A stretch of 35,162 bases of DNA from an uncultured Methanobrevibacter sp. (lineage in GTDB: Archaea > Methanobacteriota > Methanobacteria > Methanobacteriales > Methanobacteriaceae): assembly GCA_900314635.1 (NCBI GenBank), contig OMVY01000026.1:1-35162 (forward strand), written 5' to 3'. The translations under genes were made by a program, and so were the position numbers. Below are positions 11,687-28,602 of this stretch, piece after piece. A model generated the notes under the pieces. It ran no database searches. It had not been told where the DNA came from and saw only the letters and a program-made list of their open reading frames with translations. Within the stretch, counting starts at the first letter, position 1; the number at the start of each line of letters is the position of its first letter.

Positions 11687-11705
11687 AAATTTCAAGGTGT
11701 TTAAA

Positions 11706-12329
11706 TTGAATGCAAATAGATGTTATGACCCAGATTGCCCAGAGGAAATCTGTTTCAATCCAAAACATTATAACTATATTTGTTTTAATCCAGATTGTGA
11801 TGATATTCATTGTACAGATGAAAAGCATTATGATAAGCAATTATTAGTAGATTATCAAAAAAGTACTGACTTAAGCGTATTCAATCATAGGGAAGAAATC
11901 GATTATGAAGAAGATGTTGACATAAGCATCTGCGGCTGTCCTGACTGTGCAGACGACCATGACCATGATCATCATGACCACGACCACAGCCACGGCCATG
12001 AACACAACCATGACCATCAGGACCATGAAGCAAAAGCTGACACATGTTCAGACCCAGACTGCGACTGCCACGACCACGACCATGAGCATGACCACAGTCA
12101 CGAACATGGCCATGACCACGAGCATGAACATGAACATCACAAACATGAAGCAAAAACAGATACCTGCTCAGACCCAGACTGCGACTGCCATGACCATGAC
12201 CATGATCACGAACATGAACATGAACATCACAAACATGAAGCAAAAACAGATACCTGCTCAGACCCAGACTGCGACTGCCATGACCATGATCACAGATACC
12301 TGCTCAGACCCAGACTGCGACTGCCATGA
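11706..12329 (+). CDS. P1B heavy-metal ATPase, N-terminal His/Cys-rich part (frameshifted)
   Basis: The first 207 codons of the metal ATPase gene. The reading frame is correct until about 12297, then ends in the nonsense tail RYLLRPRLRLP and a TGA. The coding part has CYDPDC, CFNPKH and CFNPDC motifs, then SICGCPDCADD, then repeats of long HDHDH/HEHEH runs separated by DTCSDPDCDC. These are probable cytoplasmic metal-binding segments for zinc-class ions. The start is read as TTG 11706: AGGTG at 11695-11699 lies six bases upstream, and the in-frame GTG 11697 is part of it. Compared with the next repeat unit, 38 bp are missing at about 12293, so the frame is lost; the ATPase continues in the +1 frame (12280-14583). 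Real lesion, phase variation and assembly error are all possible. Confidence 0.72.
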   Translation: MNANRCYDPDCPEEICFNPKHYNYICFNPDCDDIHCTDEKHYDKQLLVDYQKSTDLSVFNHREEIDYEEDVDISICGCPDCADDHDHDHHDHDHSHGHEHNHDHQDHEAKADTCSDPDCDCHDHDHEHDHSHEHGHDHEHEHEHHKHEAKTDTCSDPDCDCHDHDHDHEHEHEHHKHEAKTDTCSDPDCDCHDHDHRYLLRPRLRLP

Positions 12330-12545
12330 CCATGATCACGAACATGAACATGAACATCACAAACATGAAGCAAAAGCAGATACCTGCTCAGACCCAGACT
12401 GCGACTGCCATGACCATGACCATGAACATCATGACCACAACCACAGCCACGGCCATGAACACAAACACGAACATCATGACCATGATCATCACGAACATGA
12501 AGCAAAAGCAGATACCTGCTCAGACCCAGAATGTGGATGTCATGA
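12035..12545 (+). repeat. His/Cys-rich coding repeats (CSDPDCDC units)
   Basis: Six copies of the CSDPDCDC-type motif occur, the last as CSDPECGC. Each is followed by His/Asp or His/Glu runs and EAKADT or EAKTDT. Spacings between copies are about 120, 90, 46, 84 and 132 bp. All except 46 are multiples of three, and 46 equals the next unit minus 38 bp, which marks the deletion. The SICGCPDCADD module brackets the array on both sides (about 11923 and 12573). Confidence 0.8.
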
Positions 12546-14583
12546 CCATGACCATGACGATGATGATATTGAAATCAGCATCTGCGGCTGTCCTGACTGT
12601 GCAGACGATGATGACCACGACCACGGCCATGACCACGGCGATGGTGATGAAGAACTGCTTGCAGAAGGAAAACCATTAATCGCAAACAGACCTATTCAAA
12701 TTATCGTTTCAAGTGGAGTAATGTTTGCATTAGGCCATATTTTGGAATTTGCAGGAATAAATCCTCTCTTTGCTACAATCGGAAGCTTCCAGCTGAATCT
12801 TGTAACAATCATATTCATGTGTACTGCACTCATTGCAGGATATGAAATAGCTAAGATGGCTTACAGATCATTAGTCAGAAGACACACTGTAGGTCCTGCA
12901 ATGCTCATGTGCATTGCTTGTGTGGCTGCATTCATCATAGGACACCCTGAAGAAGGTGCAGCTGTAACATTCCTCTACTTCATTGCAGAGTTCCTGGAAG
13001 ACTATGCAGAGCACCGTGCAAAACGTTCAATCAAATCCCTTGTTGAAATCGCACCTGAAACCGCTCGCGTGAAAGTTGGTGATGGGGAAGAGATGAGAAA
13101 AGTCGATGATGTGAATATCGGCGAGATTGTAATCGTAAAACCTGGAGACAAGATTCCTCTTGACGGAAAGGTTGTTACAGGCTCATCATCAGTAAACCAG
13201 GCATCAATTACAGGAGAAAGCGTTCCTGTGCTAAAAGAGATTGGAAACGAAGTATTCTCAGGTACTGTAAACGAAGACGGATATCTTGAAGTTGTTGTAA
13301 CTAAAAAAGCAAAGGATTCAGTTATTTCAAAAATCGTAACACTGGTTAAAAGGTCACAGCTCAACAGATCCGAAACCGAAACCCTTGTCGAGAAGATATC
13401 CAAATACTACACTCCGATAATGATGATTGGAGCTGCCTGTGTGGCATTCATACCTCCACTTGCATTTGGACAGGACTTGGCGAGCTGGGTTTACAGGGCT
13501 CTTTCACTTTTAGTAATCTCATGTCCTTGCGCATTCCTTATTTCAACTCCTGTAGGTATGGTATCAGCCATTACATCAGCAACAAAAAATGGTGTTTTAA
13601 TTAAGGGAAGCACCTATGTCGAAGAGATGAGAAATGTCAAAGCCGTTATTTTCGATAAAACAGGAACATTAACTGAAGGAAAATTAGTTCTAAGCGATAT
13701 AGATGTCCTGGATGATCACTTCACACAAGATGAGATTGTGAAAATTGCAGCATCCCTTGAAAGCCAGTCAAGCCACCCTATTGCACAGGCTATTGTCAAC
13801 TATGCGGATTATGAAGAATTGGAATTCTATGAAACATCCGATTTCAAGAACATTCCAGGAAAAGGAATTTCAGGTACAATCAAAGGCAATAAATACTATG
13901 CAGCAAATGAATCATTAATCGAAGAATCCGAATTCAATGTTTCACGTGAAGAAATAAACAGATATTCAGCAGATGGAAAGACTGTAGTGTGCATTGGAAA
14001 TGAAGAGCATGTCATAGGCATAATCGCTGTAAGCGACAAGCTACGTGACAATGCTGCAGAAGTAATCCGCGACTTGAAGGAAAGCGGAGTGCAAACAATA
14101 ATGCTTACTGGAGACAACAAAATCGCTGCAAGAAATGTTGCAGACAAGATTGGAATTGATTATGTATACTCCAATCTGCTTCCAGAAGACAAATTGAACA
14201 TCCTGGATACAATCAGAAACAAGTTCGGTGATGTTGCCATGGTTGGTGATGGAATCAACGACGCTCCAGCTCTTGCTAGATCAAATATCGGAATTGCAAT
14301 GGGCGCTGCAGGTTCAGATGTTGCAATCGAAACAGCTGATGTTGCCCTTATGCAGGACGACATTTCAAAACTGCCTTATCTGTTTAAATTAAGCCATAAG
14401 ACAATGGGCATCATTACACAAAACATTACTGTAGCTATTGCAGTCAAGTTGATTTGTGTTGTACTGGCTATTTTAGGAATAATCACTCTGATGATGTCTG
14501 TTGGTTTTGGAGATTTAGGATTGACATTGCTTGTTATCTTAAACTCCTTTAGAATCGCTAGAGTTAAAGACCCTCTATTCTAG
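12280..14583 (+). CDS. P1B-type Zn/Cd/Pb-transporting ATPase, main part
   Basis: Continuation of the frameshifted ATPase, open from the ATG at 12280 (768 codons). After the remaining His/Cys-rich repeats and a second SICGCPDCADD module come paired membrane segments, then TGESVPV (actuator TGE), the metal-binding SCPCAFL in the membrane, and the phosphorylation motif DKTGTLTEG. SSHPIAQAI (nucleotide domain), MLTGDN and VGDGINDAPALA (hinge) follow. The last segment GDLGLTLLVILNSFRIAR keeps the aspartate typical of ZntA/CadA P1B-2 pumps. It exports Zn, Cd or Pb at the cell membrane, driven by ATP. Whether translation restarts at 12280 or needs a frameshift is unknown; no good ribosome-binding site precedes it. 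Confidence 0.85.
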   Translation: MTMITDTCSDPDCDCHDHDHEHEHEHHKHEAKADTCSDPDCDCHDHDHEHHDHNHSHGHEHKHEHHDHDHHEHEAKADTCSDPECGCHDHDHDDDDIEISICGCPDCADDDDHDHGHDHGDGDEELLAEGKPLIANRPIQIIVSSGVMFALGHILEFAGINPLFATIGSFQLNLVTIIFMCTALIAGYEIAKMAYRSLVRRHTVGPAMLMCIACVAAFIIGHPEEGAAVTFLYFIAEFLEDYAEHRAKRSIKSLVEIAPETARVKVGDGEEMRKVDDVNIGEIVIVKPGDKIPLDGKVVTGSSSVNQASITGESVPVLKEIGNEVFSGTVNEDGYLEVVVTKKAKDSVISKIVTLVKRSQLNRSETETLVEKISKYYTPIMMIGAACVAFIPPLAFGQDLASWVYRALSLLVISCPCAFLISTPVGMVSAITSATKNGVLIKGSTYVEEMRNVKAVIFDKTGTLTEGKLVLSDIDVLDDHFTQDEIVKIAASLESQSSHPIAQAIVNYADYEELEFYETSDFKNIPGKGISGTIKGNKYYAANESLIEESEFNVSREEINRYSADGKTVVCIGNEEHVIGIIAVSDKLRDNAAEVIRDLKESGVQTIMLTGDNKIAARNVADKIGIDYVYSNLLPEDKLNILDTIRNKFGDVAMVGDGINDAPALARSNIGIAMGAAGSDVAIETADVALMQDDISKLPYLFKLSHKTMGIITQNITVAIAVKLICVVLAILGIITLMMSVGFGDLGLTLLVILNSFRIARVKDPLF

Positions 14584-20794: not shown

Positions 20795-21616
20795 TTAACT
20801 AATTTTTCTAATCAGAACGGAAGTATTGTTTGTCTTTCCTCTTGGAAGGAGCATTACTTCCTGATGGAATCCCCGGGTATCCTTGTTAGTAACTGGAGAA
20901 TATAAAATAGCTCTCATACCTGTGTAAGTCCTGTAGAGAACTGGGGTCTTCTCATCAACAATCTCCCACACATTTGCGAAAACCCTGTCCTTTGGTTCTG
21001 CAAAGGCAGCAATCATAAGGATGTCATAGTCCAGATCTGAAATGGTCTTTTCATCACCTGTGACTATTTCTATGTCATCATCAAGTCCCAAACGCTTTAA
21101 AACTTTTCTTGACAATTCTGCAACATCCTCAAACTGTTCTATTCCTATGCATTTGCATCCAGTCACCATGTTGAACATTATCAAAGTTAAAGGAAGAGGA
21201 CCGCTGCCCAGGAATACGAATGTCTTTTTTTCATTGAATTTGGCTAATTGCCTTTCATTATCAATAAGGCCTATGTATCTGTCATAGAAATGGAATGAAT
21301 CCAGAACCGCCTTTGGATCATCGGCTTCCAATATCTTCATTGCATTCTCTTTTTCAAGCCTTGCACCTATGTACACATAGAACTTTCTTATCAGCTGCAG
21401 AGCCTTGTTCATCTTCTCATCATCAAGGATGTGCTTTGCAGAGTCGAAATCTATCTCCTTGTCATGTGCGATGACCTCAATTTCATCAAGAATCATTGTA
21501 ATTTCATCAATATCAGTGCCGTCAAGTGCTGAAAGGCCTTCATTGTCCAAGTCTCCATAGCTTGAAAGCTTGTCTGCAATTTCTTCGATTTTTCCCCAGT
21601 ATTTGTAACAGCTCAT
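20795..21616 (-). CDS. Archaeal nicotianamine synthase-family protein (thermonicotianamine synthase-like)
   Basis: A roughly 273-residue archaeal member of the nicotianamine synthase family, closely resembling Methanothermobacter MTH675. That enzyme joins aminopropyl groups from S-adenosylmethionine to each other and to glutamate, giving thermonicotianamine, a metal-chelating molecule. The SAM-fold signature is FVFLGSGPLPLTLIMF (about 132-147), where nicotianamine synthases keep GSGPLPLT. DILMIAAFAEPKDRVF (about 195-210) and YRTYTGMRAILYSPV (about 224-238) are also highly characteristic, and FHFYDRY holds the substrate-site tyrosine region. ATG 21616 (protein starts MSCYKYW, as in the homologue) is chosen over TTG 21628; GTGAT lies upstream. 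It follows the GNAT gene on the same strand. Confidence 0.88.
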   Translation of the reverse strand: MSCYKYWGKIEEIADKLSSYGDLDNEGLSALDGTDIDEITMILDEIEVIAHDKEIDFDSAKHILDDEKMNKALQLIRKFYVYIGARLEKENAMKILEADDPKAVLDSFHFYDRYIGLIDNERQLAKFNEKKTFVFLGSGPLPLTLIMFNMVTGCKCIGIEQFEDVAELSRKVLKRLGLDDDIEIVTGDEKTISDLDYDILMIAAFAEPKDRVFANVWEIVDEKTPVLYRTYTGMRAILYSPVTNKDTRGFHQEVMLLPRGKTNNTSVLIRKIS

Positions 21617-21797
21617 CTTATCACGCAAAAGTTTGTTAAAAAATTAATTTTGTAAATTAATTTTAAGAAATTAAATATTAAAAAATAAATCTTAAATTAA
21701 TTTTTAGAAATCAAATAAGAATTTTTTAAAATAATTTATATTTGAATATTAATTAAATTAATTTTAATTCTCACATATAAATTTTTTCTTCATTTGA
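21617..21797. other. AT-rich gap between GNAT and nicotianamine synthase-like genes
   Basis: This 181-bp gap holds a minus-strand TATA-like element near 21737 and no repeat of the GTAATA array. The synthase gene may be read through from the GNAT promoter or have its own promoter here; the sequence does not decide. Confidence 0.35.
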
Positions 21798-22316
21798 TTA
21801 TTTGCCGCATAAGTTTTTTACCATGTGAACAGTCTTAAGCTCATTGTTAGTATCCAAAGTAACCTGGAACCCCACTTTTTTCCAAAAATTGAAACCCGCA
21901 ACAAGATTCTTCTGGGTATGCAGATAAATCTCATTGAAGTCATTTTCATAGCAGAATTCCTCGACAACATCAAATAAATGTGTAGCCAGTCCACAGCGCC
22001 TGTAAGGCTTTTCGACGAAAGATCTCCATATGCTGGCAGTGGTCTCTCTAGAGTAAATGTCTCGAAATTCTGGAAAGTCCTTGTCATATTGTCTAATTGC
22101 CATGCTGGCTATGATTCTCCCATCATCATTATTCTCAACAAAGAACAGATTGTTCTTCCTGCAGTCGATATAATACTTGTTCAAGTCCACTATGTCCTTG
22201 TGCCAGGAAGGAATGTATCCATAGCCATATTCAGATCTTATCTGGGAGAACAGGAAGTTTCTAACTCTGATTTTGGTATCGCAGTCATCAGACAGTTTCT
22301 TAATGGTAAAATTCAT
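21798..22316 (-). CDS. GNAT-family N-acetyltransferase
   Basis: A 172-residue acetyl-CoA-dependent N-acetyltransferase fold. The CoA-binding turn is EKPYRRCGLATHLF (about 97-110), a variant of the R/QxxGxG/A motif, and the C-terminal half has FNEIYLHTQKNLVAGFNFWKKVGF, the typical last strand and helix. The acceptor is unknown. GTGATTG precedes the ATG. Its promoter region carries the same half-site array as the metal/peptide importer operon, and the nicotianamine synthase-like gene follows. Acetylation of the metallophore or a self-protection role is possible but speculative. Confidence 0.8.
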   Translation of the reverse strand: MNFTIKKLSDDCDTKIRVRNFLFSQIRSEYGYGYIPSWHKDIVDLNKYYIDCRKNNLFFVENNDDGRIIASMAIRQYDKDFPEFRDIYSRETTASIWRSFVEKPYRRCGLATHLFDVVEEFCYENDFNEIYLHTQKNLVAGFNFWKKVGFQVTLDTNNELKTVHMVKNLCGK

Positions 22317-22344: not shown

Positions 22345-22560
22345 ATATAAACCAAAAGTGAAAAAAAATAAAAAGTAATACTTATGATGAAAAAAATATT
22401 ATATTAATACTTTATATATAATAATTATTATGTGACATATAAAAATATTTCTATAAAAAGTAATAAAAATTGATTATTTTTGGCTAAAAAGTATTAATTA
22501 TTACTAAAAAATAATTTATTTAAATATTAAGTATTATTTTTAAAATTAAAAAATTAATAC
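22345..22560 (-). promoter_or_regulatory. GTAATA/GTATTA half-site array and promoter of the GNAT gene (copy A)
   Basis: The minus-strand TATA box is GTTTATAT (22345-22352). Upstream of it lie half-sites at 22375 (GTAATA), 22405 (TAATAC), 22460 (GTAATA), a palindrome-like pair GTATTA-N2-TATTAC at 22491-22504, and GTATTA-N18-TAATAC at 22531-22560 with 7-bp arms. The segment ATATAAAAATATTTCTA (22437-22453) and GGCTAAAAA (22482-22490) are unchanged in copy B. The same order and near-identical spacing occur at 28101-28315 before the importer operon. Confidence 0.65.
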
Positions 22561-22712
22561 TGATTATTTATAGTAATAAAGAAAAAAATAATCCAATCAA
22601 CAACTAAAAAAATAAGAAAAAAATCCACAAAAATAAATAAGAAAAAACCTGCAAACAAAATAAAAAAAAATAAAAAATAAAAGATATTAAATATGATAAA
22701 AAATATCAATAA
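22561..22712 (-). terminator. T-rich termination region of the importer operon
   Basis: On the minus strand the DNA after the last importer gene (stop at 22713) is a series of T-tracts, including TTATTTTTTATTTTTTTTTA around 22655-22680. No coding sequence is seen. The half-site array of the GNAT gene starts directly beyond it. Confidence 0.45.
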
Positions 22713-23324
22713 TCAAACATGATTTATGTCGTCAAGATATATCACTTCATCGCAAATAATATCCATCAAGTCCTTGTCATGGCTTACAACCAATAAGCCC
22801 ATGCCCCTTTTCCTAACAATCCTCAAAACCGACTCGAATATCTGGACTTGAGTAATCGCATCAAGCATTGTAGTCATTTCATCAGCAATCAGGAATTTGG
22901 TATTTGGGTTTAAAGCCCTTAAGACTGAGAATCTCTGCAATTCACCACCTGAAAGTTCAGCAGGCCATCTGTTAAGCCAGGATTTTTGAATTCCAAAATC
23001 ATCCAGGAGGTCATCGGGAACATCCCATGATTCTCCCAGAACTTCATGCATCTTCCATTTAGGATTCATTACCTTTTCAGGGTGCTGGTAAATAAGTTGA
23101 ACAGGATTGAAGCCTTTTGGAATCTCTGCACCATCCAGCCTCACCTCACCTTCGTATTTTTTAATATGGCCTGCAAGAATCTTGCATAAACTGGATTTTC
23201 CACTTCCGCTGTCTCCAAACAATCCTAAAACCTTTTTATTATCGATAGTGATATCAACATCCTTTAAGATCTGCCTGGAAGCGGAACTGTATTTGAAAGA
23301 GATATTGCGACCAGTTAATTCCAT
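22713..23324 (-). CDS. ABC importer ATPase 2 (NikE/DppF-like)
   Basis: A 203-residue ATPase subunit. It has the Walker A loop GDSGSGKSSLC (36-46), the ABC signature LSGGELQRF (about 124-132) and Walker B LIADEMT (about 144-150) followed by a D-loop. At 203 residues it is shorter than the usual 250-330 because it lacks the C-terminal oligopeptide-transporter extension present on its partner. GGGGAA precedes the ATG. It follows the first ATPase gene by 46 bases and completes a five-gene importer. It would power uptake of a nickel, metal-chelate or peptide substrate. Confidence 0.82.
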   Translation of the reverse strand: MELTGRNISFKYSSASRQILKDVDITIDNKKVLGLFGDSGSGKSSLCKILAGHIKKYEGEVRLDGAEIPKGFNPVQLIYQHPEKVMNPKWKMHEVLGESWDVPDDLLDDFGIQKSWLNRWPAELSGGELQRFSVLRALNPNTKFLIADEMTTMLDAITQVQIFESVLRIVRKRGMGLLVVSHDKDLMDIICDEVIYLDDINHV

Positions 23325-23370
23325 GATATTCCCCCATTGATTTCAAATAAATAAAAATCATTCATAATAT

Positions 23371-24342
23371 CTACTCCTCGTATTTGAAACATCTGACCCT
23401 CTTATTATCATCGATAGGAATCAAATCAGGCCTGATCTTGTCACATTTCTCCAATTTATGGGCGCATCTGTCATAATAAGGACATCCGACAGGAATCTCT
23501 CCATGCAATGGCTGATGTCCCTTTGTCAATACAAAGCCGTTGTGAGGCAAAGCCTTGTAAAGGGATTTGGTATATGGATGAAGCAGATTCTCTCCCTCAC
23601 CGCTGAAATCATCAGCATTTGCTATTTCAATCACATATCCTGAATAGAATATGGCAATTCTGTTTGCAACCTTCAAAGCAGCATCAATGTCGTGGGTAAT
23701 CAACAGAACACCAACATTCTCCGCAGACATCTGTCTAAGATGGTTCAGAGTTTCCTCGACAGACTTTTCATCCAGCCCAGGAGTAGGCTCGTCTGCAATT
23801 ACAAGCTTTGGGTTTGAAAGAAGGGCTGTTGATACAAGAACTCTTCTTGCCATACCTCCAGACAATTGGAAAGGATACATGTCATCAACTTCTTCAGACA
23901 AGTTGTACTTTTCAAAAATTGCCCTCTGCTTGGCTCTTTTTTCCATTTCTTCTGCTTCATCAGTGCATTCACCAATAACCTGGTCTGATACTTTCATCAA
24001 TGGATCCAGGAAATTCACTGATTGTGGAATCAATGCAATTTCATCTCCACGCAGTTTCTGCTTCAATTCTTCAGTTAGAACTTCGCCCTTGTACATCATG
24101 GTTCCTGAGAGGTTTGCATTAGAGGGAAGAATGCCGAGTATTGCATGTGCAAGAAGGCTTTTTCCAGACCCGCTTGAACCTAGAACCGCTACAATCTCCC
24201 CTTCCTTGATATCCAAAGTCAAATCAGTTATAACCTTCAATTCCCTCTGATTCAAGCCTTTTACATATTGGGTGAAAGAAATGGAGATATTTGAAACATT
24301 AATCAATTCACTAACATCATTTGAAAAATTAACATCACTCAT
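23371..24342 (-). CDS. ABC importer ATPase 1 (NikD/DppD-like)
   Basis: A 323-residue ATPase subunit of a nickel/peptide (PepT family) importer. Walker A is GSSGSGKSLLA, the Q-loop lies in LIPQSVNFLDPL, the signature is LSGGMARRV, and Walker B is LVIADEPTPGLD. The C-terminal oligopeptide-transporter domain with its cysteines (CPYYDRCAHKLEKC, about 287-300) is present. GGTGATATT precedes the ATG, which lies eight bases after the stop of the permease gene. It acts at the inner face of the membrane with the second ATPase. Confidence 0.85.
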   Translation of the reverse strand: MSDVNFSNDVSELINVSNISISFTQYVKGLNQRELKVITDLTLDIKEGEIVAVLGSSGSGKSLLAHAILGILPSNANLSGTMMYKGEVLTEELKQKLRGDEIALIPQSVNFLDPLMKVSDQVIGECTDEAEEMEKRAKQRAIFEKYNLSEEVDDMYPFQLSGGMARRVLVSTALLSNPKLVIADEPTPGLDEKSVEETLNHLRQMSAENVGVLLITHDIDAALKVANRIAIFYSGYVIEIANADDFSGEGENLLHPYTKSLYKALPHNGFVLTKGHQPLHGEIPVGCPYYDRCAHKLEKCDKIRPDLIPIDDNKRVRCFKYEE

Positions 24343-24350
24343 AATATCAC

Positions 24351-25211
24351 CTACTCATTTGCGCTTGTTGGATCCAGCATCTTCTTGATATTCTCTCCAG
24401 CAATATCAAACAGCAATACAAGAATCAATAATGCCAGACCTGGGAACAATGCAAGCCACCAGTTTCCTGTTGCAAGATATTTCATGGATTCAGATAAGAT
24501 AATACCAATAGCAGGCTCATGAGGAGAGAGACCGAATCCTAAAAATGTCACACTTGCTTCGTGCATGATTGCATGAGGGAAGATTAAAATTGTACCTACA
24601 ATTACCTGTGTGACAACCAGCGGAAGAATCTGTTTTCTTGCAATCCATAACTTGGATTTTCCAAGCTTTTCAGAAATTGTTACAAATTCGGAAGTTTTGA
24701 TTCTCTTGATTTCTGCCCTGAGCACTCTTGCAAGAGATGTCCAGTGGGTGAAAGCCACACCAACCAATACTCCAAAAGCGCCTCCACCTAAAGCAATGGA
24801 AATAAGAATGATGAGCAGAATATGCGGAATGGATAGGAACACATCGATAAGCCATGATACAAAACTGTCCAGATACTTGTTGAAACTAGACAGAAAAGCC
24901 AGGGCAACAGCAATGATGCTGCTTAAAACTGAAGCGAAGAATCCTATCTGAACACTTAATCCCAGACCCTTGAGAGTACGGATGAACATATCCCTTCCCA
25001 GCCAGTCGGTACCGAAGATATGCTCAAAGGAAGGCGGCTGGTTCATCATTGACCAATTGGTAGTGATGCTTTTAGGATCAATGGTGAAGCTGATGATTAC
25101 TACTAGAATCAGTATGAAAGCAGACAGCCCTATTGCAAGCAATGTCTTGGTTCTCAGATTCATGCTGCCTAAAATATCAAACTTACTCATCTTATTGACT
25201 GATTCATCCAT
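24351..25211 (-). CDS. ABC importer permease 2 (NikC/DppC-like)
   Basis: A roughly 286-residue permease with about six membrane helices. GTDWLGRDMFIRTLKGLGLS (about 66-85) is the hallmark N-terminal motif of DppC/NikC proteins, and the EAA-type coupling loop lies near FVTISEKLGKSKLWI. ATG 25211 is chosen over GTG 25220, which is part of the AGGTGAGG ribosome-binding region. The start overlaps the stop of the first permease gene, indicating translational coupling. It forms the channel with that permease. Confidence 0.85.
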   Translation of the reverse strand: MDESVNKMSKFDILGSMNLRTKTLLAIGLSAFILILVVIISFTIDPKSITTNWSMMNQPPSFEHIFGTDWLGRDMFIRTLKGLGLSVQIGFFASVLSSIIAVALAFLSSFNKYLDSFVSWLIDVFLSIPHILLIILISIALGGGAFGVLVGVAFTHWTSLARVLRAEIKRIKTSEFVTISEKLGKSKLWIARKQILPLVVTQVIVGTILIFPHAIMHEASVTFLGFGLSPHEPAIGIILSESMKYLATGNWWLALFPGLALLILVLLFDIAGENIKKMLDPTSANE

Positions 25212-26196
25212 TTTCCTCACCTTCCTTGATTCTAGGATCTACAAAGTTGTATAAAATATCCGCAATCAGATTTCCGCAGTATACGAAAATCGCACTGAAA
25301 ATCACAATTCCAAGCAATAATGGAACATCGCTTCTCAAACCTGCGGAAACTGCAGCCTGACCTATGCCGGGATACATGAAAACCTGTTCAACAAGAACTG
25401 TACCTCCAAACAATTCACTGAAAGATAAGAACTGCAAAGTTATGGCAGGAAGAAGAATATTCCTTATGCCGTGTCTTTTTATCAAAGTCCATCCATCTTC
25501 TCCTCTTGCCTTTGCAAAAAGGAAATAATCAGTTGACATAACTTCTATGAGCTTGTCACGGGTGTATAATGCGATTGATGCAACACCAAGAATGCTCAAT
25601 GTAAATGCAGGCAGAATCAAATGCCTCAGCCAGTCCCAGAATGATACATCCTGGCTCAATGCTCCGATAGGAACTCCTCCACTTACAGGGAACAGTCCAA
25701 GATAGACGCTGAATACCATTACAACAAGCAGTGCAATCCAGAATGTAGGTGCTGACTGCAGTATGTAACAGTATGTCTTGACAGCCTTGTCAACCCATGT
25801 GTCTCTTTTAAATCCTGCAAGAACGCCTAAAGCAAATCCAAGTATTCCTGAAATCGCCCATGATGTCAGCATCAATATGAGGGATGCTGTGAATTTTTCA
25901 GAGATGACATGCAGAACCGGAGCCCTGTAAATCAGTGAAGTACCGAAGTCACCGGTGAGGATATTTCCAAGCCAGTTCAGCATCTTCTCTGTAATAGGCT
26001 GGTTCACTCCCCAGTATGCTTCCAGCTGTGCAATCTTTTCAGGACTAACAACCATGTTGGAAATATAAGCATTTACCGGATTTATAGGAGACATGTCAAT
26101 CAGTATGAAACTTAATAATATTACTACAATCAATAATATGGCAAAGCGAACAAGCTTATAGCCTAAAAATTTAAGTATTTTCTGTTTGTCTAACAA
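25204..26196 (-). CDS. ABC importer permease 1 (NikB/DppB-like)
   Basis: A 330-residue permease with about six membrane helices. The N-terminal KLVRFAILLIVVILLSFILI and the NPVNAYISNMVVSPEKIAQL segment are typical of DppB/NikB, as is GLFPVSGGVP before the inner loop and the EAA-like loop near DYFLFAKARGEDGWTLIKRH. The open frame extends to 26313, but GGAGG at 26204-26208 lies seven bases before an in-frame TTG at 26196. That TTG is taken as the start, because the upstream extension is AT-rich and has no site. It follows the binding-protein gene. Confidence 0.83.
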   Translation of the reverse strand: MLDKQKILKFLGYKLVRFAILLIVVILLSFILIDMSPINPVNAYISNMVVSPEKIAQLEAYWGVNQPITEKMLNWLGNILTGDFGTSLIYRAPVLHVISEKFTASLILMLTSWAISGILGFALGVLAGFKRDTWVDKAVKTYCYILQSAPTFWIALLVVMVFSVYLGLFPVSGGVPIGALSQDVSFWDWLRHLILPAFTLSILGVASIALYTRDKLIEVMSTDYFLFAKARGEDGWTLIKRHGIRNILLPAITLQFLSFSELFGGTVLVEQVFMYPGIGQAAVSAGLRSDVPLLLGIVIFSAIFVYCGNLIADILYNFVDPRIKEGEENG

Positions 26197-26430
26197 GAAA
26201 CAACCTCCATATTTAAAATCACATATAATGAATAATAAGATTGAAAATGCATTAAATTGGAATAAAATCATAAACAAAAAGATTTGAAAAAACTTCAAAC
26301 AAAAATATTCCAATTCATACCCCTACACAATGCATTAAAAAGATACAATATTTTATAAAAGTGAAAATTAGAAAATTTTTTTAAAAAAAAAGTGGAAAAA
26401 GCCATTGGCTTTTCCCGACTTCATGATTTT

Positions 26431-28044
26431 TTAACTTTCTGAAGTTGCGTTGGTCATGGTCCAGTCGTATATGTTACTGAACAAGTCTCCGCCGTGAGGC
26501 TGCAAGAGAGCGGTGTCATTGGAAATGTCCACCCTGTCATTTACAAAGTAACCATATTTGATTTCACCTAACCATAACCAGTTAGCATCACCTTTAGGAG
26601 AAATACCTGTGGAACCGTCCCATGATACAGCAGACCAGTCTTTGTAGGAAGCTTCACGGGATTCCGCAAATGCTGCATCCATATGAGCATCTACTGCGCT
26701 GTTGTTGACACTTGCAGGGTTGAAGTCAGAGGAACTGTAGTATTCTCCGTACATATCTGAAGGATCAGTGGAACCGTATCCCCAGAGAACTCCTTGTGAA
26801 TATTCATTTGGATAGATCTCATCCCATTCAGCACCTATAGGCTCAACTTCAATACCGAATTCCTTGGCTTGTTCAGCAAGTCCTAAAGCCAATGCCTGTC
26901 TTTCAGGAGCATTTGCAGAGTAGTATACTTCAAATGAAGCCTTTGTGCCGTTCTTTTCTCTTATACCGTCACCGTCAGAGTCAACCCAGCCCGCTTCTTC
27001 CAAGGTTTTGTTTGCATATGCAACATCACCGTCTTCAATAGCGGCTTCAGGATTAGCCCATGGCAGTTGATGAGCAATACCGTCGTAGCAAGGTACACCT
27101 AATCCGTTTAATGCGCCTTCAGCTAAAGCAGTTCTGTTGATACCATAGTTCAATGCTTTTCTTACAGCAATGTCTGAAGTTACATTGTTACCGATTGTGT
27201 AGTTGTCCCCTTCAGATACTTCACCAGTATCTGGAACACTAGGCAGTGAGATACCACGAACATCGATGGTGTCCATGAGGTACATTGTGTAGCCGTCCAC
27301 ACTTTCCTTACCATATTCAAGAGGTACTGCCACTACATCAGCCTCTCCATTCTTAGCGAGGTTGAATGCTGCTTCGTTTTGAGCGAAGAGAATGGTAATC
27401 TTTTCTACTTCAGGCATTTTTCCATAGTAATCAGGGTTTTTCTCCAAGATTACTTGCTGGCCTTTGTCCCATTGTACGAATTTGTATGGTCCGGAACCTA
27501 CAGGGTTTTCACCATAGGTTTCGTTGTCATATGAATCGGAAGGAACAATACCGATGTAAGCAAGCTTGTCGAGGAAAGTGGAATCTGATTTGTTCAAATC
27601 AAACTCGACAGTGTAGTCATCCACAGCTTTTGCTTCTTTTAAAGCAGTCAAGTCAAGGCTTGCACCGCTGTCTCTTGCTGCATTGAAAGTGAATGCAACA
27701 TCTTCAGCAGTAAGCGGTGTACCGTCGGTAAAGTTGACATCGTCTCTGATATTTACAGTGTATTTCTTGAAATCACTGGAAATCTCATAGTCTGTAGCCA
27801 GATCGTTTGAATAAGTACCGTTGGTATTCATTTTAAGCAGGGTACTTTGAATCAATGGCTCTGCATAATAGTTCCAGCCTGCAATAGGGTCGAAACCTGC
27901 TTCAGGTTCTCCTCCGTGACTGTAAGCTGCAACTACGATTTCTCCCGGTCCTCTTTCGGTAGTGCCCCCTCCCATAAGAAGAGCACCGCCGATAAGCACA
28001 ACAATAATAGCGACTATCGCACCAATTATATATTTTGTATTCAT
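26431..28044 (-). CDS. Substrate-binding protein of nickel/peptide ABC importer (NikA/OppA-like, family 5)
   Basis: A 537-residue family-5 extracellular binding protein. An N-terminal membrane anchor (KYIIGAIVAIIVVLIGGALL, about 4-23) is followed by a Gly/Thr linker, without a lipobox cysteine, so it is held by an uncleaved helix. Family segments are NFTDGTPLTAEDVAFTFNAA (about 105-124), GSGPYKFVQWDKGQQVILEK (about 181-200) and the C-terminal fold. The cargo cannot be read from sequence: free nickel, a metal chelate and peptides are all known for the family. AAGGAG precedes the ATG. It is the first gene of the importer operon and has the half-site array in its promoter. Confidence 0.85.
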   Translation of the reverse strand: MNTKYIIGAIVAIIVVLIGGALLMGGGTTERGPGEIVVAAYSHGGEPEAGFDPIAGWNYYAEPLIQSTLLKMNTNGTYSNDLATDYEISSDFKKYTVNIRDDVNFTDGTPLTAEDVAFTFNAARDSGASLDLTALKEAKAVDDYTVEFDLNKSDSTFLDKLAYIGIVPSDSYDNETYGENPVGSGPYKFVQWDKGQQVILEKNPDYYGKMPEVEKITILFAQNEAAFNLAKNGEADVVAVPLEYGKESVDGYTMYLMDTIDVRGISLPSVPDTGEVSEGDNYTIGNNVTSDIAVRKALNYGINRTALAEGALNGLGVPCYDGIAHQLPWANPEAAIEDGDVAYANKTLEEAGWVDSDGDGIREKNGTKASFEVYYSANAPERQALALGLAEQAKEFGIEVEPIGAEWDEIYPNEYSQGVLWGYGSTDPSDMYGEYYSSSDFNPASVNNSAVDAHMDAAFAESREASYKDWSAVSWDGSTGISPKGDANWLWLGEIKYGYFVNDRVDISNDTALLQPHGGDLFSNIYDWTMTNATSES

Positions 28045-28602
28045 AATAAGACTCCTTGAGTTAAAGATAAAATATTAAGCAACAATCTTAATGGAAAAGT
28101 ATATAAACTTAATTTAAAATGAAATTAGTAATACAAATATTAAAATTGTTATGAAATTAATACTTTACATTTAATTATTAATACATATTCATATAAAAAT
28201 ATTTCTAAATAAAGTAATATTAAATGGCTTATTTTGGCTAAAAAAGTAATAATTATTACTCAAATTTATTTTATTTAAATATAAAGTAATAATTTATAAT
28301 TTTAAAAGATATTACTCACCAGTATTAAAAAATAAGCGAAAATTAGTAAAAAAAGTAATACTTAAATAAATTAAGTTTAATGAAAAAATAATTTAAATAA
28401 AAATAGGATATTTAAAATAAAGAATAAAAACCATAATATATAAATGAAAAAATTTTCAGTAAAAAGCAAAATTTACAAACTATAGACAATTAAAAAGTAT
28501 AAAAAAAGAAAAATTAAAAATTTAATAAAAAAATATAATGAAAAATAAAAATTTAACAGATTCAAATGAAAAAATTATGGAAGAATTTTAAAATTCTTCA
28601 TT
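28045..28602. other. Long AT-rich intergenic region before the importer operon
   Basis: A 558-bp region between the adhesin gene's end and the binding-protein gene, both on the minus strand. The lower-coordinate part (28101-28315) is the importer promoter array. A further GTAATAC half-site lies at about 28356. The part from about 28420 to 28600 is T-rich on the minus strand and probably ends adhesin transcription. No coding sequence or RNA gene is recognised. Confidence 0.45.
28101..28315 (-). promoter_or_regulatory. GTAATA half-site array and promoter of the importer operon (copy B)
   Basis: The minus-strand TATA box is GTTTATAT (28101-28108). Half-sites follow upstream at 28128 (GTAATA), 28158 (TAATAC), 28214 (GTAATA), the perfect 16-bp palindrome AGTAATAATTATTACT at 28245-28260, and GTAATA-N18-TATTAC at 28286-28315. 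ATATAAAAATATTTCTA (28191-28207) and GGCTAAAAA (28236-28244) are identical to copy A. Order and spacing match copy A within a few bases over nearly 190 bp. I see an ancestral duplication kept by selection; the regulator is unknown, with a nickel or other metal sensor as the natural guess. Confidence 0.65.

Follow-up and report, generated by a model that had tools for sequence, protein, structure and literature searches.

GTAWTAC palindrome arrays as candidate operators of a nickel-starvation regulon in Methanobacteriales

Two promoter regions of an uncultured Methanobrevibacter carry arrays of a short palindrome, GTAWTAC, which to judge from comparative sequence evidence probably serve as operators for a repressor that responds to nickel; the most likely candidate is the single NikR of the genome. 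The arrays very likely belong to a shared nickel/cobalt regulon, and it is only slightly less likely that nickel is its signal. With more reserve, we favor an archaeal nickel-starvation regulon spanning the order Methanobacteriales, in which arrays of the 9-bp palindrome AGTAWTACT, placed across three helical turns and read by NikR or another sensor, would form a new operator architecture and couple the change from [NiFe]-hydrogenases to Hmd and Elp with a nicotianamine-type nickel chelator. Methanogens are nickel-limited in nature, and Hmd and Elp are their response. This response is known as proteins, with regulator and operator unnamed in the literature searched, and the GTAWTAC arrays represent a concrete, testable DNA code for it. 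They also add a nicotianamine synthase (NAS) family protein and its paired importer to the nickel response, which points to a metallophore that carries nickel in rumen methane producers, and their spacing would be new for a NikR-type operator.

Two related arrays and the genes behind them

The window, i.e., the whole 35,162-nucleotide stretch analyzed, constitutes contig G000:C9 in a genome of 2.29 Mb. The named relatives found in a search with the NAS protein were Methanobrevibacter and other Methanobacteriaceae, many of them from rumen and gut. The array-associated features are listed in Table 1.

Table 1. Array-associated features of the window.
Feature	Position	Strand	Evidence or detail
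NAS family protein	20795..21628	-	PF03059, E 2.1e-20
GNAT acetyltransferase paired with NAS	21798..22316	-	PF00583
Array A, in front of GNAT/NAS	22375..22578	-	GTAWTAC-type sites 22375-22381, 22405-22410, 22460-22465, 22491-22496, 22499-22504, 22531-22536, 22555-22560, 22573-22578
Core promoter (BRE/TATA, TAGAAATATTTTTATAT) of GNAT/NAS unit, predicted	22437..22453	-	conserved in orthologous promoters
Nik/Opp-type ABC importer, whole operon	22713-28044	-	
Importer ATPases (two)	22713..24342	-	22713-23324 and 23371-24342; profile matches
Importer permeases (two)	24351..26313	-	24351-25220 and 25204-26313; profile matches
Importer solute-binding protein	26431..28044	-	PF00496, E 3.7e-74, and NCBIfam
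Array B, in front of importer operon	28128..28361	-	GTAWTAC-type sites 28128-28134, 28158-28163, 28179-28184, 28214-28219, 28246-28251, 28254-28259, 28286-28291, 28310-28315, 28322-28327, 28355-28361
Core promoter (BRE/TATA) of importer operon, predicted	28191..28207	-	conserved in orthologous promoters

The NAS protein scores 73.7 bits with its Pfam profile against a cut-off of 27.1, which places it in the family, and its adjacency to the GNAT gene is preserved throughout the order. The NCBIfam models closest to the solute-binding protein are NikA and CntA, both under cut-off. Equivalog scores fell below the NCBIfam cut-offs for NikA, NikB and NikD (149.6 vs 393, 201.9 vs 447 and 157.8 vs 318.7 bits) and likewise for CntL and CntA (42.7 vs 350 and 131.2 vs 800 bits), and the importer shares only its superfamily with the E. 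coli-type NikABCDE. Neither the window nor five target loci gave an Rfam match to a Ni/Co or cobalamin riboswitch at gathering score. Elsewhere in the window, His/Asp/Cys-rich repeats open a P-type ATPase gene located behind an ArsR gene (11697-14583); its frame is divided over two overlapping ORFs inside the repeats, perhaps by a frameshift or by variation in repeat length.

A sequence-only reading of this DNA had claimed that the two arrays match in order and spacing. This holds, as the alignment of 22345-22578 with 28101-28361 gives a local score of 106, compared with a mean of 42.6 (SD 5.0, maximum 62) in 500 dinucleotide shuffles. The arrays are real but were drawn too short, since they run to 22578 (A) and 28361 (B). 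Array A holds eight GTAWTA/TAWTAC sites and array B ten, where 1.0 and 1.2 are expected from Markov simulations of these sequences; the observed numbers were reached in 0 of 5,000 simulations. Nor are such half-sites equally dense in other AT-rich intergenic DNA of the window: the arrays hold 18 in 498 bp, the remaining intergenic DNA 5 in 4,708 bp.

The same reading had listed an identical 17-bp block as an element of the arrays and placed a minus-strand TATA box at 22345. The identity between both promoters is confirmed, but the block, which reads TAGAAATATTTTTATAT in the gene direction, is best interpreted as an archaeal BRE/TATA-like core promoter and not as an operator, and it is conserved in most orthologous promoters. 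It is also a better promoter candidate than the box at 22345. Measured from this TATA, sites lie at about -160, -128, -115, -92, -59, -52, -20, (+16), +36 and +65, and these positions are nearly the same in eight promoters from seven genomes, of which individual promoters may miss some sites. An inverted repeat with an 18-bp gap had further been proposed to be kept symmetrical. Its distance is indeed kept in most orthologues, whereas the symmetry of the arms is lost in G012 (which we take to be M. ruminantium M1; the gene order matches), G008 and G004.

Across the genus, the GNAT/NAS arrays and the solute-binding-protein arrays form separate groups (support 0.987), and the duplication that produced arrays A and B therefore predates the genus. 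In G031, from another genus, NAS and the importer genes are divergent, with a single array between them.

A short palindrome with a three-turn spacing

The repeated unit is the palindrome GTAWTAC, preferentially flanked by A and T, i.e., AGTAWTACT (78% and 74% of 427 distinct sites). Within the genus (19 genomes), exact pairs with centers 31-33 bp apart, corresponding to three helical turns, number 111, against 12 for a reversed-word control. They extend to 18 other genomes of the family (52 pairs) and 12 others of the order (6), while 12 more distant archaea hold one. The corresponding counts at 25-27 bp are 4, 8, 2 and 1, and pairs at 20-22 bp in the genus number 11 vs 1 for the reversed control. 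Over all loci analyzed, 61 distinct pairs are spaced by 32 bp, 17 by 31 bp and 12 by 33 bp, with few at neighboring distances; some of these loci were retrieved by patterns permitting 17-42 bp, which carry no bias to 32 inside that range. Of 36 further NAS loci that were held out and located through the protein alone, 11 carry a 31-33 bp pair in the 700 bp upstream of NAS; there are 14 pairs at 31-33 bp and none at either 25-27 or 36-38 bp. The peak thus recurs, though many of these loci lack such a pair; an array is not always followed directly by NAS.

The middle letter W combines freely across the 31-33 bp pairs (TA 27, AA 25, TT 24, AT 12). Together with the asymmetric arms of the orthologues, this leads us to reject the compensating change that had been suggested for the arms of the 18-bp-gap repeat. 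No enrichment was seen for the loose pattern GTAWTA-N{0,30}-TAWTAC (65 vs 149 for its reversed control), so the signal is carried only by the word plus its spacing.

Counts in the own genome are based on pattern searches and stretches of sequence. Two additional exact N16-20 matches were found there, at C19:96103 and C23:28789. The latter lies between convergent genes and was judged to be a chance occurrence. The former, to which a pair in G016 corresponds, lies between tbp (TATA-binding protein) and a CYTH gene; such intergenic pairs, about 22 bp apart, occur in two genomes (L093:4105-4133, L169:4498-4526).

Members and proposed working of the regulon

There is strong support for the idea of a shared metal regulon, which is larger than first proposed, with nickel and cobalt targets in the own genome and in relatives. 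Arrays precede NAS with GNAT, two Nik/Opp importers, two CbiM-type transporters and CfbA, and also nikR, elpABC, and the nickel-free hydrogenase gene hmd with hcgG. Targets recognized by family match are NAS, CfbA, HypA (in a relative), the two CbiM, Hmd, HcgG, the ElpA/FrhB/MvhD operon and the second Nik/Opp operon, while ElpABC was identified by operon order and a short FdhA-like subunit. In the own genome, four tandem pairs (contig C5) lie where cbi cobalamin genes diverge from a heavy-metal P-type ATPase and CbiMNQO. Further arrays stand at CfbA, the F430 nickelochelatase (C8), at a second CbiMN-type transporter (C19) and at an elpABC-like operon (C11), and there are sites at nikR (C18); hmd is absent from this genome. 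In relatives, one divergent array serves both hmd and hcgG, and elpABC has GTATTAC directly behind its TATA. Arrays there also accompany a second Nik/Opp operon that has a GNAT of its own, a P-type ATPase adjoining NAS, and DUF3344 surface proteins. In a group of rumen methanogens, the word is found at most of the known nickel-starvation genes and is therefore probably the operator of their nickel repressor. The NAS product may be a nickel carrier, a role suggested by its partners only.

The arrangement extends to Methanothermobacter-type genomes, where a 32-bp pair between NAS and GNAT is kept in all genomes examined; the spacing is constant while the DNA between the sites varies, and in the one genome inspected in full GNAT is divergent from NAS. 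The hmd gene of this type carries GTACTAC-N14-GTATTAC.

Some further occurrences of the word were observed. Large secreted FmdE-domain proteins (966 and 949 aa) encoded near NAS are preceded by 32-bp pairs (L054:176-3191, from a Methanothermobacter-type genome, and L051:6445-9407) and are possibly surface metal-binding members of the same response. A 32-bp pair lies inside a phage-like gene cluster (L151:3482-3520, G012 427,481), with a closely similar pair at G004 C11:54041, so a mobile element may use the operator word of its host.

Under ample nickel, NikR dimers would bind the 7-bp palindromes and join neighboring sites at a distance of two helical turns (21 bp) or three (31-33 bp). They would thereby cover the TATA region, with sites at -20, +36 and +65, and presumably shut the promoter. 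When nickel drops, the repressor would leave, and the cell would make a nicotianamine-like chelator from NAS, perhaps modified by GNAT, together with Nik/Opp and CbiM-type importers and the F430 nickelochelatase. Where present, the nickel-sparing electron routes Hmd and ElpABC would be derepressed as well.

Published expression data support co-induction of part of the array gene set. These RNA-seq data from M. ruminantium M1 concern lauric acid (fatty-acid) treatment and not nickel limitation (PMC5816558). Increases were reported for hmd (+1.41), the adjoining bioB2 (+1.24), cbiM1/cbiN1 (+1.2), nikB1, nikA2B2C2D2 and the GNAT gene mru_1707 (+1.1 to +1.5), and mru_1613, which we call NAS by gene order and not by annotation (+1.58) (PMC5816558). 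Many other genes rise too (PMC5816558), and the data are therefore supporting but not decisive.

The candidate binder and known systems

The own genome encodes one NikR, with a single PF08753 match (E 2.8e-31), scores above the NCBIfam NikR-family cut-offs and an alignment to NikR structure 2bj1; the hydrogenase maturation protease HycI is encoded close downstream. In nearly all of the genus, the nikR promoter has two GTAATA sites 21 bp apart flanking a TATA-like box; in Methanothermobacter the sites are weak or unclear, which is a point against NikR. Ribbon-helix-helix dimers recognize short palindromes in the major groove, and GTAWTAC would therefore suit one NikR dimer, and a regulator binding cooperatively as dimer or tetramer would fit the rigid spacing. 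The arrays had been described as NikR-like in geometry but not in consensus. The reverse is nearer, as the word resembles by eye the NikR half-sites GTGTTAC and GTATGA, while a spacing of about 20-22 bp is found at nikR, hmd and a minority of pairs and most are 31-33 bp apart. This three-turn spacing, unexplained by known NikR operators, is the weakest link of the NikR reading and the reason why the binder is only a proposed one; still, NikR is a fairly probable binder.

The same regulon could instead be read by another dimeric metal sensor, e.g., a winged-helix protein, with nikR merely a target. We regard this as unlikely, though it is the alternative to be taken most seriously. The predominant spacing is unusual for NikR, a TrmB-like small protein is encoded near nikR, and two fairly complete genomes with pairs, G014 and G035, gave no NikR match in assemblies that are fragmented or contaminated. 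However, one NikR with 21-bp-spaced sites at its own promoter recurs throughout the genus, the word is near the published NikR half-site, and the gene set is tied to no other candidate. Since cobalt genes are included, the sensed metal could also be cobalt or both. Also counted against NikR is a dense array in a gene-poor convergent region of three genomes (L084:5043-5349 in own contig C10, L154:3227-3478, L170:3535-3788). Its sites follow in steps of 21, 23 and 11 bp, next to a basic ORF (about 95 aa) that is conserved. It has no Rfam match and could act as a decoy for the repressor or belong to an RNA that is not annotated.

It is improbable that the arrays mark a general stress or redox regulon in which metal genes are included by chance. 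Co-induction under lauric acid, where many other genes change, and arrays before surface proteins or within a prophage region would fit it, but the targets are mostly nickel/cobalt uptake and insertion genes and nickel-free substitutes, nikR included. It is harder still to believe in AT-rich low-complexity DNA or a recent duplication lacking a regulatory role. The AT content of the arrays (88%) and the paralogy of A and B (66% identity) would fit, but this explanation is already contradicted by the genus-wide separation of the two array groups and by unrelated promoters that share word and spacing.

The proposed regulon can be compared with known systems. In Methanothermobacter marburgensis, Hmd, Elp, NikR1, CobN1 and transporters increase under nickel limitation, and homologues of Hmd, Elp, NikR1 and the transporters carry sites here; that response is described as proteins, and the text searched assigns no operator or regulator and does not mention NAS (PMC12350162). 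The staphylopine (cnt) system of Staphylococcus similarly combines a NAS-like enzyme with a Nik/Opp-type importer, whereas here the CntL and CntA models stay below cut-off, GNAT adjoins NAS and the regulation is archaeal. The E. coli NikR operator, GTATGA-N16-TCATAC, likewise has paired short half-sites before a nickel importer (PMC7055735), but it is one pair about 22 bp apart with another half-site, compared with palindromic words in long arrays here. The delta-proteobacterial NikR regulon has the consensus GTGTTAC-[N13/14]-GTAACAC and predicted control of nickel transporters and a nickel-free hydrogenase (PMC545781). Its half-site is about one letter off, and its spacing of about 21 bp recurs at nikR and hmd here. 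In contrast, the methanogen regulon has an archaeal promoter, extended arrays mostly spaced by 31-33 bp, NAS and Elp among its targets, and a predicted binder.
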